Source of the DNA: a virus
DNA length: 21,034 nt
IMG/VR virus record: IMGVR_UViG_3300025806_000274
Span: 1-21,034 of that record
Reading direction: 5' to 3' (one strand)
Under the pieces are notes generated by a model. That model had not been told where the DNA came from, ran no database searches, and saw only the letters and a list, made by a program, of their open reading frames with translations. The position numbers and the translations under genes were made by a program. Shown piece after piece: positions 247 through 9,100 of the stretch (its first letter is position 1; each line of letters starts with the position of its first letter).

Positions 247-1617
247 ATGGATAACTTGAGAATAGAAAAAAGCAATTACGGCTTTAAAAGGGTTTACAAA
301 GATGTCAATGTATATGATGCAGCTTTAGAGAGAGTTGATTTTATATTCAAAAACTTTGATCGTGTTTATCTTTCTTTTTCGGGAGGGAAAGACTCTGGAG
401 TAATGTTAAACCTATGCTTGGATTACATGAAAAAAAATAACATCAGAGACAAGAAGCTTGGAATTCAAATTTTAGATAACGAAGCAAATTATGAGTACTC
501 ATTGCAATTTATGCACAAAATATTACAAGACAATATTGAATACCTCGACATATATTGGTGCTGCCTTCCAGTGACGCTGCCATGCTGCATTTCTTCTTAT
601 GAGATAGACTGGCAGTGCTGGGGAGAAAAAGATAAGCATAGATGGATTAGAGAGATGCCTAAGCAGGACTACATTGTAAATATTGATAATCACAAATTTG
701 GCGATCTTTTTATTGAAAATATGAACTACGATGAATTTTGGGATATGTTTTCTGAGTGGTATAGTCAAGGAAAGAGTTGCGCTAATTTAATCGGAATAAG
801 AACGCAAGAGAGCCTTAACCGATACAGGGCAATACTAAACGACAGAAAAGAAACGAAAGACGGTTTAATGTGGACAAAGAAAAACACTGAGCACACATAC
901 AACTGCTATCCTATTTTCGATTGGAGAACCTCGGACGTATGGGCTTCAAATGCTAAGTTTGAGTGGCTTTACAATAAGCTCTACGATGTTTTTTATATGT
1001 CAGGTGTTCCAGTCGAAACAATGAGGGTGGCCAGCCCATTTATGAGCGAAGCAAAGGCTAGCTTAAACTTATATAGAGTTATTGACGGCCATACGTGGGC
1101 GAGGTTATGCGCAAGAGTGAGCGGGGCTAACTTCACAGCCACGTACGGAAAGCAGCTTAACTACAACAGCTTTTCTTTGCCAGATGGTCATACATGGAAA
1201 TCTTTTGTGAAGTTTTTAATTGATACTTTGCCGGAGCAGTCATCAGCAAATTTTAAGCAGCGCTTTATCCAATCAATAAAATTCTGGGGTAGAGTGGGGC
1301 GCGGGTTAAACGAAGATATTATAAGCAATTTAAAATCTATAGGTATAAAGTTTCACTTAAATGGAGTCACTCCACATGGAAGAGGCAACTTAAGGCGAGT
1401 GATAATAAAGGTACCGCCTGATCACCTAGACGGCTTAAAAAGCAACGCCGGTAGCGTAACTAGCTGGAAAAGGTTCTGTATAACGATACTTAAAAATGAT
1501 CATACATGTAAGTATCTAGGCTTGCAGCCAGCGAAGCACCAGCAAGAAAGGCAAAGATCAATACAAAAAAAATATAAATCATTAAATAAGAATGGGGCGA
1601 AAAATGAAAATAGTTAG
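247..1617 (+). CDS. ibrA: IbrA-like PP-loop protein (PAPS-reductase-like, DUF3440)
   Basis: The 456-residue protein has the N-terminal PP-loop signature SFSGGKDSGVML (SGGKDS at residues 45-50), which binds ATP in PAPS reductases and related adenylating enzymes. Further DUF3440 hallmarks are a cysteine-rich CCLPVTLPCC segment (105-114), GIRTQESLNRYRAI (183-196) and a C-terminal ILKND tail (about 406-430). Length matches E. coli IbrA, a proposed activator of prophage eib genes whose chemistry is not established. I chose ATG 247 over the GTG at 238 because the GTG lacks a clear ribosome binding site; AG-rich sequence with GGGG precedes the ATG. The next gene overlaps it by 14 bases, and IbrA/IbrB pairing is the usual arrangement. 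A PP-loop fold is near certain; PAPS as the actual substrate is not. Confidence 0.9.
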   Translation: MDNLRIEKSNYGFKRVYKDVNVYDAALERVDFIFKNFDRVYLSFSGGKDSGVMLNLCLDYMKKNNIRDKKLGIQILDNEANYEYSLQFMHKILQDNIEYLDIYWCCLPVTLPCCISSYEIDWQCWGEKDKHRWIREMPKQDYIVNIDNHKFGDLFIENMNYDEFWDMFSEWYSQGKSCANLIGIRTQESLNRYRAILNDRKETKDGLMWTKKNTEHTYNCYPIFDWRTSDVWASNAKFEWLYNKLYDVFYMSGVPVETMRVASPFMSEAKASLNLYRVIDGHTWARLCARVSGANFTATYGKQLNYNSFSLPDGHTWKSFVKFLIDTLPEQSSANFKQRFIQSIKFWGRVGRGLNEDIISNLKSIGIKFHLNGVTPHGRGNLRRVIIKVPPDHLDGLKSNAGSVTSWKRFCITILKNDHTCKYLGLQPAKHQQERQRSIQKKYKSLNKNGAKNENS

Positions 1618-2506
1618 ATTGTCAGATTTAAGCAACGAAAAAATAGTAAGCTGCCCAAAAGGCGGGTTCATTAGCAACCGTATATTGACTAAGTCAGATA
1701 ATATGGGTTACTCAATGACAAAAACTATAATCCCCCCTAAGGGCAAGCAGTTTTGGCATTACAAAGAGCATTTGGAGAGCTGTTATTGCATAAGTGGAAA
1801 AGGAATATTAACAAGCGAAAAAACAGGCGCAGAATTTATTATTGAGCCAGATGTAACTTATGTTCTTGATAAAAATGATCCTCATTATTTTGAAGCAGTA
1901 GAAGAGGTTGTTTTGATTTGCGTCTTTAACCCACCGCTACAGGGTGACGAGGTTCACGGTGAGGATGGCTCTTATATTGCAAGCGATAAGCTTTCGCCTG
2001 TCTATAACGTTAAAGCTGTTCATATTGATAGAATAAAATCTAACGATTATAACCCCAACTCTGTCGCCCCTCCTGAAATGGCATTGCTGGAAACCTCAAT
2101 TTGGGAAGACGGATATACCCAGCCAGTAGTTACAGTCTACGATAAAGAAGAGGATTTCTACATCGTAGTCGATGGATTCCATAGATTTAGAACATTAAAA
2201 GAAAGTAAGCGCATAAGGGAGCGAGAGAAGGACATGCTTCCTGTTGTTGTTTTGAACAAAGATATGCACGATAGGATGGCATCAACCATTAGACATAACA
2301 GAGCTAGAGGCAGTCACAATATAGAGCTTATGAGCACGATAGTTTCAGAGTTAGTTGAAATGGGGAAGGGGGACAAGTGGATTTGCGATCATATTGGAAT
2401 GAGTAAAGACGAGCTTTTACGTCTAAAGCAGATAACTGGAGTTGCCGCTCTTTTTCAGAATACTGACTTTAGTCAATCATGGGAAGCTGAACTTAATGAA
2501 AATTAA
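1604..2506 (+). CDS. Fusion of ectoine-synthase-like cupin and IbrB/ParB-like domain
   Basis: Residues 1-125 of this 300-aa protein look like a complete L-ectoine synthase (EctC), a small metal-dependent cupin that cyclises N-acetyl-diaminobutyrate. Visible matches are NMGYSMTKT, HYKEHLES, TYVLDKNDPH and CVFNPPLQGDEVHGEDGSY. The residues I recall as EctC metal ligands (Glu, Tyr, His) correspond to E58, Y86 and H94. Proposed substrate residues correspond to R26, T41, Y53, H56, C106, E116 and H118. The usual Trp near position 21 is Phe22. Residues 134-290 form an IbrB-like ParB domain: VVDGFHRFRTL (189-199), the basic HNRARGSHN (231-239), then a helix-turn-helix near 258-280. ATG 1604 is preferred over ATG 1592 because GGGG precedes it and EctC proteins start MIVR-like. 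It overlaps ibrA by 14 bases and the next gene by 11. Real ectoine synthesis is unlikely without EctA/EctB; the cupin may use another substrate or act as a sensor. Confidence 0.9.
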   Translation: MKIVRLSDLSNEKIVSCPKGGFISNRILTKSDNMGYSMTKTIIPPKGKQFWHYKEHLESCYCISGKGILTSEKTGAEFIIEPDVTYVLDKNDPHYFEAVEEVVLICVFNPPLQGDEVHGEDGSYIASDKLSPVYNVKAVHIDRIKSNDYNPNSVAPPEMALLETSIWEDGYTQPVVTVYDKEEDFYIVVDGFHRFRTLKESKRIREREKDMLPVVVLNKDMHDRMASTIRHNRARGSHNIELMSTIVSELVEMGKGDKWICDHIGMSKDELLRLKQITGVAALFQNTDFSQSWEAELNEN

Positions 2507-2906
2507 GAGAGTGTATAGGCATTATTTAGACTGGGAAGAAATGGATACCAAGATGTGGTCTAGCGTAAACAATAAAAAAAGTTACTTAAAAAAAGCAATA
2601 GTTTTTACTAGCGATCACGTGAAGTATGGCAGATTCATGATTCTTGTAGTTAAGAAGTGGCCGGTATCGTGCGAGAACTGGCTTACTGACTTTTCTTGCA
2701 ATAGAAGAGCATGGATAGGCCACGCGGCGGTGGCAATGGCGATTAATTGCCCTGAAAGCATAACTAGAGAAGCATGGGGGCACTTAACAGATGAGCAACG
2801 GACATTGGCGAACAGAGAAGCTGATAGAGCAATCGCTTTTTGGGAAAAGCGCTACTCAAAAGATAAGCTCTTACAGAGAGATGTGGATAAACAGATGTTA
2901 CTTTGA
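2496..2906 (+). CDS. Conserved-looking phage protein of unknown function
   Basis: This 136-residue protein begins MKIKRVYRHY. Its middle has CENWLTDFSCNRRAWIGHAA, then AWGHLTDEQRTLANREADRA, a helical segment ending in basic residues. I recall similar proteins (NRRAWIG and WG-LTDEQR-LAN motifs) next to IbrA/IbrB-like genes in phages, but I know of no function. No catalytic motif, signal peptide or membrane segment is evident. ATG 2496 lies inside the 3' end of the cupin-ParB gene (11-base overlap). An upstream in-frame ATG at 2442 would extend it deeper into that gene with no better ribosome site, so I rejected it. The tight overlap suggests translational coupling and a shared role with the IbrA/IbrB-like proteins. 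Confidence 0.75.
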   Translation: MKIKRVYRHYLDWEEMDTKMWSSVNNKKSYLKKAIVFTSDHVKYGRFMILVVKKWPVSCENWLTDFSCNRRAWIGHAAVAMAINCPESITREAWGHLTDEQRTLANREADRAIAFWEKRYSKDKLLQRDVDKQMLL

Positions 2907-3102
2907 TGATATTCCAGATAGCGCCCCAAAAAAGCTTGAGTCAACACTTAAGGTTCCTAGCTATAGAAAAATAGCTTTATGTATTTTAAAGAATGATCTT
3001 AATTTTAAAGAGCTTGGTTTCAGCCAAGAAAAGTCAAATTGGGCGCAAATTCTTCTTTCAGAAAAAAATGAGAAGGAAAGCAAGCAAATAAAATTAATAT
3101 AA
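2881..3102 (+). CDS. Small protein resembling the IbrA C-terminal tail
   Basis: The 73-residue product begins MWINRCYFDDIP and contains RKIALCILKNDLNFKELGF. Residues 27-51 align without gaps to residues 406-430 of the IbrA-like protein, with 10 of 25 identical (S, I, L, K, N, D, K, L, G, K) and many conservative changes. It is therefore a free-standing copy of the DUF3440 tail. ATG 2881 is preferred over an upstream ATG at 2791, because residues before it are only a shadow of the 136-aa gene's frame, and AGAGAG precedes it. It overlaps that gene by 26 bases. It might pair with or compete for whatever partner the IbrA tail binds; this is inference. Confidence 0.75.
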   Translation: MWINRCYFDDIPDSAPKKLESTLKVPSYRKIALCILKNDLNFKELGFSQEKSNWAQILLSEKNEKESKQIKLI

Positions 3103-3116
3103 ATGACGGGAATTTT

Positions 3117-3290
3117 ATGAAAAAACAAGTAGCATTTAGGTTAGAAGAAAAACTTTTATCTAGATTAAAATCAAGAGCAAAAAAAGAAGGCAGAACGCAG
3201 ACATGGTATGTGTCTACATCTTTAAATGATCACTTTGATAAAAAAGATAATAAAGAGGGGTCGGCCAATGAAGAAGGCTACAAAGATTGA
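3117..3290 (+). CDS. Ribbon-helix-helix (Arc/CopG-like) small DNA-binding protein
   Basis: A 57-residue frame begins MKKQVAFRLEEKLLSRL and continues KSRAKKEGRTQTWYVSTSLN before a charged tail. This is the classic ribbon-helix-helix layout: a short N-terminal strand (KQVAFRL), helix 1 (EEKLLSRLKSRAKKEG) and helix 2 starting at RTQTWYV. Such proteins bind DNA as dimers and act as repressors or antitoxins. GGGAA lies a few bases before ATG 3117. The 3' end overlaps the next gene by 23 bases. No toxin-like partner is obvious, so a transcriptional regulator is more likely than an antitoxin. It is a candidate to bind the inverted repeat at 191-208, but nothing in the sequence proves this. Confidence 0.75.
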   Translation: MKKQVAFRLEEKLLSRLKSRAKKEGRTQTWYVSTSLNDHFDKKDNKEGSANEEGYKD

Positions 3291-3633
3291 CTACGCCGGG
3301 TTGGACATTGAGATAGAGCTAGAAGCTGCTCAAAGCTACGTAGAGCATCGAATCAACAAAGGTAAGCCGTTGACACAAAGAGCATTCAATCAAGCCATGT
3401 GCATGGCATTAAGGGCGCATGAAGTAGGTATGTCCCCAACTGAGTTAATAGATTGGACTGTAAGCAAAGGGTGGGACGGTATAAACCTACCCTATGCAAA
3501 GAATGCTTTATCTCGAGAAACAATGGCAGAATTTGAGGCTACGGTATTGCCCAAGAATGTGTCACGGATTGATCGGACTCGCGATCAATCAATACCTAAA
3601 ATGTTAACGGATACAGGGTGGATGAAGCAATGA
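3268..3633 (+). CDS. Hypothetical protein with replication-protein-like helical motif
   Basis: The 121-residue protein starts MKKATKIDYAGLDIEIELEA, preceded by GAGGGG at good spacing; an upstream in-frame start at 3226 would lie inside the RHH gene and has no site. The middle reads LTQRAFNQAMCMALRAHEVG then PTELIDWTVSKGWDGINLPY. A helix pair followed by W-V-x-GW-GI resembles the C-terminal motif seen in phage replication O-like or DnaT-like proteins (ENGWKGI-type), which contact helicase or primosome components. The similarity is to a short motif from memory and the protein lacks an N-terminal winged helix, so the role is tentative. It overlaps the RHH gene by 23 bases and the next gene by 4 (ATGA). 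Confidence 0.65.
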   Translation: MKKATKIDYAGLDIEIELEAAQSYVEHRINKGKPLTQRAFNQAMCMALRAHEVGMSPTELIDWTVSKGWDGINLPYAKNALSRETMAEFEATVLPKNVSRIDRTRDQSIPKMLTDTGWMKQ

Positions 3634-3836
3634 AAACGATAGTTGGCATACAAAGCGCATACAGAGAGGCCATTGATAGCGCTTACGGCGAGAACATGAC
3701 GATATCCGCATTGCTTGTTCGTGAAATGGTAGAAAGGCTCAGCGAGCTAGAAACAGCGGTTATTAATATGGAGTGCGCCCTTCGTACATGCAATAACGCC
3801 AGCGCTGGCGCTCTAGATTCATATAAGCATTTATAA
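3630..3836 (+). CDS. Small hypothetical phage protein
   Basis: The product is 68 residues, begins MKTIVGIQSAYREA and is mostly helical (LLVREMVERLSELETAVI), suggesting a small coiled-coil protein. ATG 3630 overlaps the TGA of the preceding gene as ATGA, a typical coupled start; the GTG at 3618 is less likely. I do not recognise the family. Position within the plus-strand operon is the only clue: it sits between a replication-like protein and an HTH protein. Confidence 0.6.
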   Translation: MKTIVGIQSAYREAIDSAYGENMTISALLVREMVERLSELETAVINMECALRTCNNASAGALDSYKHL

Positions 3837-3857
3837 TTTTAGATCATGGAGTAAGTA

Positions 3858-4118
3858 ATGAAAGATATAGTTTCGGAAAGATTAGGCGCAAATGTAGACG
3901 AAGCCTATTTTGAGTTTTTAGTAAATGGGTGCAATCCCATGTCTCAAGTTAAAATAGCTGAGAAGCTTGGCGTAACTCATCAAGCGGTTTCAAATATAAT
4001 GAAAGCCATATTTAGAAAGTTGGAGCGAATACACGGATTAGAGCCGGTATCGCCCACTACTAGATCAATGGTGATGAAGCACAGTGACGGTATGAAAATT
4101 AATGTAGCGCTCAATTAA
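3858..4118 (+). CDS. Sigma-region-4-like helix-turn-helix protein
   Basis: The 86-residue protein contains SQVKIAEKLGVTHQAVSNIM followed by KAIFRKLERI, which has the layout of a sigma-70 region 4 or LuxR-like helix-turn-helix (about residues 28-58). GGAG lies 7 bases before ATG 3858. There is no sigma region 2, so it is not a full sigma factor. It is the last plus-strand gene before the late operon begins from the other direction. Small proteins of this type in phages can act as late-gene activators or antiterminators; which of these applies cannot be told. No clear terminator is visible between its stop and the tailspike stop. Confidence 0.7.
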   Translation: MKDIVSERLGANVDEAYFEFLVNGCNPMSQVKIAEKLGVTHQAVSNIMKAIFRKLERIHGLEPVSPTTRSMVMKHSDGMKINVALN

Positions 4119-6114: not shown

Positions 6115-9100
6115 TAACTCGGCTCCAAGTCGTCATGTTGATATATTGCGGCTATGTATTCCTCACAGACAATATCGCACGTATTGTCACTGCTAGGCTG
6201 TATATTTCGTATTATAGCGCGTTTTACTACCTGATCTGTCGTTCCCATGCTGAATAAGACATCATAATCGCCAAAAGTAAAGCCTAAGGATGATGGGCTA
6301 TCAAGCGTTATTTGATTGGGTGAAGCGCCAGCCGATACGCTAAATGGGCCATAACATACGCCTTCGTCATCCCTGAAAAATGCTAAATCACTACCCAAAA
6401 AAGTTAATATTTGATCGGTTGAAATTGTAGCGCCAGAAACCGCCGTTACCTTTCCGAATTGTGGCGCATCTAGCTCATCGACAATGCCTACAGCGTCACC
6501 ATAAAACGAATTTAGTCCGTCCATTTCTGTAGTAAAGGAATATTCGCGCGGCCTGTTGCGCTCTCTTTCACGCTCTCGCATACCAAACCGCCAAGCCTGA
6601 GTACGGCCAGTAATACCAAAGGCCTGTATTTTTTTGGTTCTAATCCCATTGTCGCCAGCCAAAAAAGCATTAACAGTTTCGTTGATTCCGGTTTCATTAT
6701 TCAAGTATTCCACGATTATTCCGTCTGGCTCCTCTGTGCTGTCGTGTTCAGCAACCGTTGTCACACCCTCGCCCATCATAATATCGGGCGTGTATAAATG
6801 GCTGTAATCTGTACCCGCTGCCGTTCTAACAGGTGTCATCTTGCCGTTTTTAATCGTTGGCTCAGCGTAACCAGTAGACAAAATTAACTTTGAAACGTCC
6901 CATACTGTAGACTCATTGGCAAACTCAGCATTAAGGGTGTCGCCTCTAGCCTGAGTCAAAGTGTCAAACGCTGCAAATTCCGACCAATCAACATACTCGG
7001 CCAAATCATTACCGATTCTATCGTAAAGCATATAACCCATGAAACGGCCTATTTCGCTAGTGGAGCGGCTATCAACAACTGTGGTTGATGCGTATGTGTG
7101 TACGTCACCACCTAATATAAAATTCTCTTCAGGATAGCTAACAGCAAACATTTTTGACCCGTCAGGGTTAAAAGAAAAGCTATCAAGTACGACGGGAAAA
7201 ACATACCTGCCGCCGCTATCGGTTACAGAGGATAAATCACCACCAACAATATCAAGCTCAAAAGCATTTCTAAAAGAGTCAAACAAAATCAGCTTGCTAT
7301 CCGATATGAAAAACTCATCAACTGCCGGGCTTACTGTAAAATATCCAGATATATCAAGACTAACGGAATCGTAAGAAGCTGTAGAAACATCATTTAACGT
7401 ACTCATCGTGTACTGACGAATAGCGCTAGAGCCAATAAGAATAAATAGCTTATCACCTAGAATTCTACAAAATATCTCGCCGGAAATGGGGACATCGCTG
7501 AATATCTGAGATGGAGTTACTGATACCGAACTCACATCATAAGCAACGCTCATCAAATAAACGTATACAATTTGATTTTCCATAACTAGCAGCTTTGTCC
7601 CGCCATCAAAAACATCAATAACTTTATCAATCGTACTAGTAAATGCTGGCGATATTGTAGGGTTTGAAAAATCAATCGAACTTACATCATAAGGGGAGGC
7701 TGACGGATATGAAGTGATAACGGTCTCTGAATCAACAAAATTAGAAAGTGCTACATAATAATTAAGCCCACTATCACTAAAAAATGCCCCGAGTGGGTTT
7801 GATGTTGCCGTCCCGCTTACCCAAAGATCAACCGGCCTCGCATTTAAAAAAGCCGCATCATCCATTGAATAATAGTTTGTTGTTGCCGTATTTTCAGCAG
7901 TTAAACTGTATGGCGTACCGCTTGATGCTAGTGCTTCAATCTCGGCCAAAGTCGGTAATTTTCTTGTTGCACCAACAATGGCGAGCCTATTCTCAGCCGT
8001 TCTAGATAGCGCATTGGTGGCCCTTATTCTTAGGGCTATAGTTGTAACGTCTGAGTAACTTGTCGCACTTTCCAAAAGTGCCTTTACTCTCGTTATTTCA
8101 ACCTCGTCTAACTGCTTTGTGCTTGTCGCATCGTCAGTTATTCGGCGAAACCTAACCTCTGGGTTATAACTTGAGGCCAAGGATTGAGTTACAGTATAGC
8201 CGCGCTCATTATTTGTATTGTCTGTGTATGAGGTAGCCGGAACGGTCAGCCAGTCGCCGCCTAGCCCAGACTCCCTGTATTGAACCTCGATATCAACTGT
8301 CCTAGAGCTAAAACCACCGTTATTATTTAAAAAACCTATACCTCTAGGAAATCTAACTTCAAACTCGAATGCGGTTGCATTTTGACCAAAGGGGCAAAGT
8401 GTAAACGGCCCCTCCCAATTCACCCCCCCAAGCTCAGCCCTCCATTCTATAGCCGCCTCAGTATCGGACGTTAAAACGTCGGTGGTGTCATTATAAATAG
8501 TCCCCAAAACTGGAGTTAACACAAAAGTATCGTCCGAGTCCCCATTGTAGATTGTTTGCGAATCATAACCCACCGTAACGGTCTCAGGGTCAACAATGGT
8601 AACGGTGATAGTGTCATCAGTTGCGGTCGTGGTTAATATAGTTTCTACCCTCATAAACCGTTCATTTGCGGCTATATTGGCATCACTAAATAATAATATC
8701 GAACCGACATCGAAAGGAAAGGCAACGGCCACTGAATCGACAAAAAACTGTATAGTGTCGGGTGCTGTAAAAATCGCACTCCAATTTCCACTAGGCTGAT
8801 CGAAAGTTGTTTTTAGCGAAAGGCTGCTAACGTCTAACGCTTGATACCAGTTTTGGTGCGCTATATTGCCGCTCACTGTATCGCCCGGCTCAAAAATTTC
8901 TAACTCAATATCGCCGGGGTAATTTGAAATCGGGGTATCAGCTATAAATAAATTTCTTGAACTTATATCAAAATACCCAACCCCAACGGATAGCATCAAA
9001 TAAATATATTCGATGTTATCTTCAAACCGCCGCCGAGGGGGGCAGATATAATCAGGAAAAATAGGGATTGACCCAGCCACTTCTCTAACCAACTGGTTAG

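Follow-up and report, generated by a model that had tools for sequence, protein, structure and literature searches.

The IbrA/IbrB module and its described relatives

For two decades IbrA and IbrB have been known only as co-activators of prophage genes. We describe here a candidate nucleic-acid modification cassette, a set of four phage genes built around relatives of these two proteins, found at the left end of a 21,034-base virus fragment (IMG/VR record IMGVR_UViG_3300025806_000274; this whole stretch is called the window below). All four genes lie on the plus strand. The first encodes an IbrA-like protein of 456 amino acids (AA) with a PP-loop ATP-pyrophosphatase motif (SFSGGKDS) and a C-terminal DUF3440 (247-1617), and the second (1604-2506) a cupin-ParB fusion in which an EctC-like cupin (residues 1-126) precedes a ParB/Srx-like IbrB domain (residues 131-296). 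They are followed by U3, an all-helical product of 136 AA to which no family assigns a function and which is nearly exclusive to phages (2496-2906), and by T4, a 103-AA separate copy of the C-terminal tail of IbrA, the end of DUF3440 (2791-3102).

IbrA/IbrB of E. coli and its prophages, as well as YbdN/YbdM of strain K-12, are likewise a PP-loop/DUF3440 protein and a ParB-like protein, encoded by adjacent, overlapping genes and carrying the same invariant motifs. They differ from the module in having no cupin, U3 or separate tail, and their IbrA is ~31-34% identical to that of the module. Much closer are Mycobacterium phage Gaia (gp103-107) and Pseudoalteromonas phage XCL1123, in which the same four genes are present, with an IbrA identity of 66-68% and orthologues of U3 and T4. 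Gaia differs in a GIY-YIG-like gene placed between genes 2 and 3, and XCL1123 in having cupin and ParB as two genes. The Gaia gene (L003:8215-8589) encodes a GIY-YIG-like endonuclease, occurs at the same place in phage Nebkiss and looks like a homing insertion. In Gaia and XCL1123 the products are annotated as a PAPS reductase and an ectoine synthase/ParB multidomain protein, with no function assigned.

A first-pass annotation of the window had proposed that the system might be undescribed. This holds for the four-gene set: no description of it, of its U3 and tail components or of a link to tailoring cassettes was found in the searchable literature, nor was any mechanism paper on DUF3440, ibrA/ibrB or ybdN/ybdM. 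It does not hold for IbrA/IbrB themselves or for the cupin-ParB fusion next to a PAPS-reductase-like gene, which are already known or annotated, the latter in the two phages named above. An earlier prediction is also possible, as Iyer et al. reportedly foresaw, in 2013, lysidine-like phage DNA modifications made by PP-loop enzymes.

Two DNA modification systems serve as more distant comparisons. CmoX/CmoY hypermodification of phage DNA also relies on an ATP-dependent, AMP-forming ligase that attaches glycine to a derivative of cytosine and frequently has a ParBc neighbour in phages (PMC12783734). CmoY, however, is asparagine-synthetase-like and not a DUF3440 protein, and it needs the carboxymethyltransferase CmoX, which was not seen at the module. 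Dnd/Ssp phosphorothioation pairs the PAPS-reductase-like DndC with DndB, its ParB-superfamily partner (PMC10853773). Unlike that system, the module shows no DndA, DndD or DndE and its IbrA has no family-wide cysteine; DndD/DndE or SspB/C are also not among the recurrent annotated neighbours of IbrA loci.

Co-occurrence of the four genes and their neighbourhood

The IMG/VR database was scanned twice independently, with IbrA and with U3 as seed, and both scans recovered the gene set. Within 3 kb of U3, the 82 U3-seeded loci contain a full IbrA in 78 cases, ParB in 80, the cupin in 76 (fused to ParB in 63 of these) and the tail gene in 81. The four loci without IbrA (L101, L122, L129, L164) have less than 1 kb of contig upstream, i.e., they are cut by contig ends. 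Well over a hundred further phage contigs carry the same four genes, far above chance. The genes are thus near-obligate partners in phages, and the first-pass proposal that they form one module was borne out by their strong co-occurrence. Their order is not fixed: L067 and L074 read CupParB-U3-T4-IbrA, L083 and L089 are rearranged in other ways, and the fusion is split into a cupin gene and a ParB gene in L002, L009, L019, L020, L035 and others. Retention of the set despite such shuffling is strong evidence for a common function. We discarded a reading of locus L088 as a split IbrA complemented by T4, since the frame of its IbrA tail is continuous and T4 is absent.

The block recurs in bacterial viruses of very different hosts, and the host breakdown of phage records is nearly identical for IbrA (n=212) and the ParB part (n=219). 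The cultured carrier phages infect Pseudoalteromonas and Mycobacterium smegmatis. U3 was found at 179 viral loci vs. two contigs in 84,980 prokaryote genomes, the latter figure being a lower bound because that scan relies on short conserved peptides. Pseudomonas phage Amjad_SA and Microcystis phage Mwe-JY13 have ParB-U3-IbrA and not the four-gene form, suggesting that the IbrA-IbrB core was joined by U3 before it gained the cupin and the tail copy.

A recurrent neighbour is a superfamily 2 (SF2) helicase of the ResIII/Helicase_C type. Among 139 loci with both IbrA and U3, pooled from the two scans so that some contigs are counted twice, it is present in 83, on the same strand in 81 of the 83, and is the next gene of at least 100 AA in 68. 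SF2/SNF2-like helicases also adjoin ibrAB loci of two or three genes in phages of Streptococcus, Flavobacterium, Pseudomonas and Fusobacterium. In the window, where the upstream side is cut off, no helicase lies beside the module. In Fusobacterium phage phiFN37 a second ParB-like gene overlaps a queuine tRNA-ribosyltransferase gene ~3 kb from ibrAB (L095:9754-11039), a pair reminiscent of DpdA/DpdB DNA deazaguanine modification.

The wider IbrA family, sampled in 76 loci with IbrA of Microbacterium phage Dewdrop as query, is without U3, T4 or cupin. ParB adjoins IbrA in nearly all of these loci, mostly following it directly or overlapping it, and the loci lie close upstream of the terminase gene terL. 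Instead of a fixed set, exchangeable enzymes of tailoring type are found here: a family resembling glycosyltransferases, in which an EDD-type region is conserved, in 30 loci (PHROG glucosyltransferase, 2e-5), DPPW methyltransferase-like proteins in 29, a family with an invariant HxD...H, as in 2-oxoglutarate dioxygenases, in 16 (a motif only, with no library match) and GNAT acetyltransferases in 11. When the glycosyltransferase family was used as seed, IbrA was found within 3 kb in 74 of 80 loci and ParB in 76. As pathways of phage DNA hypermodification pair a constant activating core with tailoring enzymes that can be exchanged, the wider IbrA family appears to resemble them. An ATP-dependent activating enzyme and tailoring enzymes occur together in this wider family; the sole tailoring-type domain of the four-gene variant is the cupin.

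Outside IbrA loci the glycosyltransferase family hardly occurs. In L170-L249 a recurrent cassette lies beside terL, in which ParB, f125, the EDD-type glycosyltransferase, the DPPW methyltransferase, the HxD...H dioxygenase-like protein and GNAT surround IbrA+IbrB, with L184:4232-8000, L206:3282-5300 and L226:6020-8000 as examples. A haloarchaeal plasmid carries DUF3440, ParB, a GNAT acetyltransferase and a PAPS-reductase-like gene in one run (L168:6448-9641).

Predicted chemistry and possible functions

Profile matches agree with the gene identities given in the first-pass annotation. The IbrA-like protein matches DUF3440 (PF11922, E=7.7e-57), PAPS_reduct (PF01507, 5.8e-10) and PHROG 2302 (8.9e-108), and its PP-loop is retained. 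The nearest folds to its AlphaFold model (predicted local distance difference test, pLDDT, 70) are PAPS reductase, the PAPS domain of FAD synthase, ATP sulfurylase and TilS, and the tRNA thiolase NcsA is also among the structural matches. Comparison of 112 IbrA proteins revealed neither the catalytic CG[LIVM]H motif of CysH (the ECGLH-type C-terminal Cys; 0/112) nor a cysteine column common to the whole family, and we therefore infer that adenylation is favoured over sulfur transfer. Within the clade of the module, where Cys105, Cys106, Cys113, Cys288 and Cys421 are invariant, sulfur transfer could still take place.

The fusion protein matches Ectoine_synth (PF06339, E=1.1e-38) and ParB_N (PF02195, E=9e-5), and its motifs DGFHR and TIRxNRAxG are invariant. 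The EctC iron ligands Glu57, Tyr84 and His92 (PMC6344544) are retained in all 99 distinct phage cupins, as are Arg25, Thr40 and Tyr52. Two further EctC residues are never present. One is Trp-21, on which activity depends. It is conserved in each of the 437 EctC proteins of ect clusters and also, sometimes displaced by two residues, in orphan EctC, but no phage cupin has it at or near this position (0/99). Asn-38, which touches the substrate carboxylate (PMC6344544), is likewise absent (0/99), with Thr in its place in 90. No ectA or ectB is annotated in the entire XCL1123 genome or in the 50 kb of Gaia examined. The likeness to ectoine synthase, with which the domain shares the cupin fold, is not to be read as ectoine synthesis, which we rejected on the loss of Trp-21 and Asn-38 and the absence of ectA and ectB. 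With its metal ligands intact and those two residues lost, the ParB-fused phage cupin is probably not an ectoine synthase but a functional metalloenzyme that acts on another substrate.

The ParB/Srx fold has relatives that include, as weak matches, the free serine kinases SerK and SbnI. Plasmid-type partition is unsupported, as no ParA was seen next to the module in this 21-kb fragment, in which parS was not searched. U3 belongs to no Pfam, PHROG or NCBIfam family. Its AlphaFold model is all-helical (pLDDT 95.4; predicted template modelling score, pTM, 0.87) and had no informative match in the PDB or the viral structure library; the single strong match in the latter, A0A649V0K8 with 58% identity, is presumably a U3 orthologue from a related phage. 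T4 matches DUF3440 (PF11922) at profile positions 121-179 only, its last third (E=4.4e-8). A domain profile search found no RNA-binding domain in the four proteins.

We put the probability at about one half that the module is a cassette with which phages modify nucleic acid, most likely their own DNA, and in which IbrA-IbrB form an activating core and the cupin is a tailoring enzyme. IbrA would activate a base, or a group attached to it, by ATP-driven adenylation and then join a small molecule to that base or group. IbrB would recruit IbrA to DNA, or open and license the DNA, and a neighbouring SF2 helicase may assist. The cupin of this variant would act, by means of an Fe-type Lewis-acid site, on an amide or amine within the group so added, for example by cyclising it and releasing water. 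U3 and the free tail T4 may be structural or substrate-presenting subunits, and the phage would gain protection from host nucleases.

A bolder and more tentative version, with odds well short of even, is that IbrA-IbrB forms the centre of a kind of phage DNA hypermodification that is widespread and has gone unrecognised. Its tailoring step would differ from phage to phage (glycosyl-, acetyl- or methyltransferase, dioxygenase-like), and in the clade of the module the EctC-derived cupin would have assumed it, building a new, possibly cyclic base group. If so, IbrA/IbrB would gain a biochemical role, an osmolyte enzyme would have been recruited into nucleic-acid chemistry, and the carrier phages, two of them with cultured hosts of which one is a standard laboratory strain, would form a testable set for a new modified nucleoside.

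Several observations weigh against a DNA modification cassette. The adjacency of helicase and terminase genes may partly reflect where genes for replication and packaging usually lie in phages. The cassettes rich in tailoring genes come from a diverged subgroup of IbrA that lacks U3, T4 and cupin, from which function is carried over by inference, and the IbrA model is of moderate confidence. Relatives of the ibrAB genes of phage PhiR5_2 are common on E. coli chromosomes (1,918 of 5,426 complete genomes; ybdN/ybdM in K-12), and no matching DNA modification is known to us there. Three E. coli contexts examined were isolated pairs in insertion-sequence-rich islands or prophage-like regions and gave no functional hint. 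Further, we know of no modified base from any module-bearing phage and of no biochemistry on the module. The first-pass annotation had already favoured enzymatic modification of DNA, RNA or a nucleotide, or a regulatory sensor, over simple transcription control. The comparative context (swappable glycosyl-, acetyl- and methyltransferase and dioxygenase-like genes, SF2 helicase) speaks for modification of nucleic acid.

Among the competing explanations, a small-molecule or counter-defence enzyme retains most weight and is still unlikely. The module would then make or destroy a free nucleotide or an amino-acid-derived metabolite during infection and leave DNA unmodified. SerK and SbnI act on free serine, two of the nearest PP-loop folds, FAD synthase and ATP sulfurylase, on free molecules, and EctC on a free metabolite; helicase and DNA-type methyltransferase neighbours and the adjacent terminase argue otherwise. 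Next in rank, and also doubtful, is sulfur chemistry on DNA, with IbrA acting like DndC or SspD and IbrB like DndB to bring sulfur into the backbone or a base. DndC is the best defence-library match to IbrA (PADLOC, 9.8e-7), DndB offers a ParB-superfamily parallel, and the module clade has its five invariant cysteines. However, the IbrA family as a whole conserves none of the five, the loci examined have no DndA-like desulfurase, DndD or DndE annotated beside them, and phosphorothioation gives no role to the cupin or to glycosyl and acetyl tailoring genes.

Modification of tRNA or rRNA would fit the many PP-loop enzymes with tRNA substrates, TilS and NcsA among them, both of which are structural matches of the IbrA model. 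We consider it improbable, as the ParB-like partner, the DNA-type SF2 helicase and the packaging context point to DNA, and an RNA-binding domain was not detected. Transcriptional co-activation, as reported for E. coli IbrA/IbrB on prophage eib genes, ranks equally low. It agrees with the annotation of these proteins and with an Arc-like protein encoded downstream, yet the conserved ATP-pyrophosphatase and metal-cupin active sites and the tailoring-enzyme contexts imply chemistry, and an effect on transcription could be indirect. An auxiliary sulfate-assimilation role (viral cysH), to which the wide annotation of such genes as PAPS reductase would point, was rejected because IbrA has no CysH motif or family-wide cysteine, and its linkage is to ParB and not to cys genes. 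At least IbrA-type viral 'PAPS reductase/cysH' genes should therefore not be scored as sulfur metabolism in virome surveys.

Gene boundaries and surroundings in the window

The four genes overlap as the first-pass annotation described, by 14 bases between IbrA and cupin-ParB and by 11 between cupin-ParB and U3, except that the third overlap is 116 and not 26 bases. The latter figure implies a T4 start at 2881; with an ATG at 2791, T4 runs in the +1 frame relative to U3. The start at 2791 is the most likely one because T4 relatives share an N-terminal extension of ~30 residues that begins with MSN or MSK (MSN..W...). An in-frame ATG with an open frame is present at this position in 89 of 98 distinct loci. 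When the codons of U3 were reshuffled synonymously, an ATG with such a frame arose in 19% of cases, and as the loci are related no p-value is attached to this comparison. For the IbrA-tail gene of Gaia (L003:8874-9164), the annotation of gp107 begins only at 8964, ~90 bases downstream of the conserved start, which lies within gp106.

Directly downstream of T4, a small Arc/CopG-like DNA-binding protein is encoded on the plus strand (3117-3290; PHROG Arc-like repressor, 1e-3), which is probably regulatory and outside the conserved set. Just upstream of the module, at positions 1-133, the contig edge truncates a plus-strand gene, and the C-terminal part of its product that remains looks like a helix-turn-helix protein. 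A replication-initiator O-like protein (PHROG 678) and a small sigma-region-4-like helix-turn-helix protein are encoded on the plus strand at 3226-4118, and the remainder of the window is occupied by minus-strand siphovirus structural and terminase genes.

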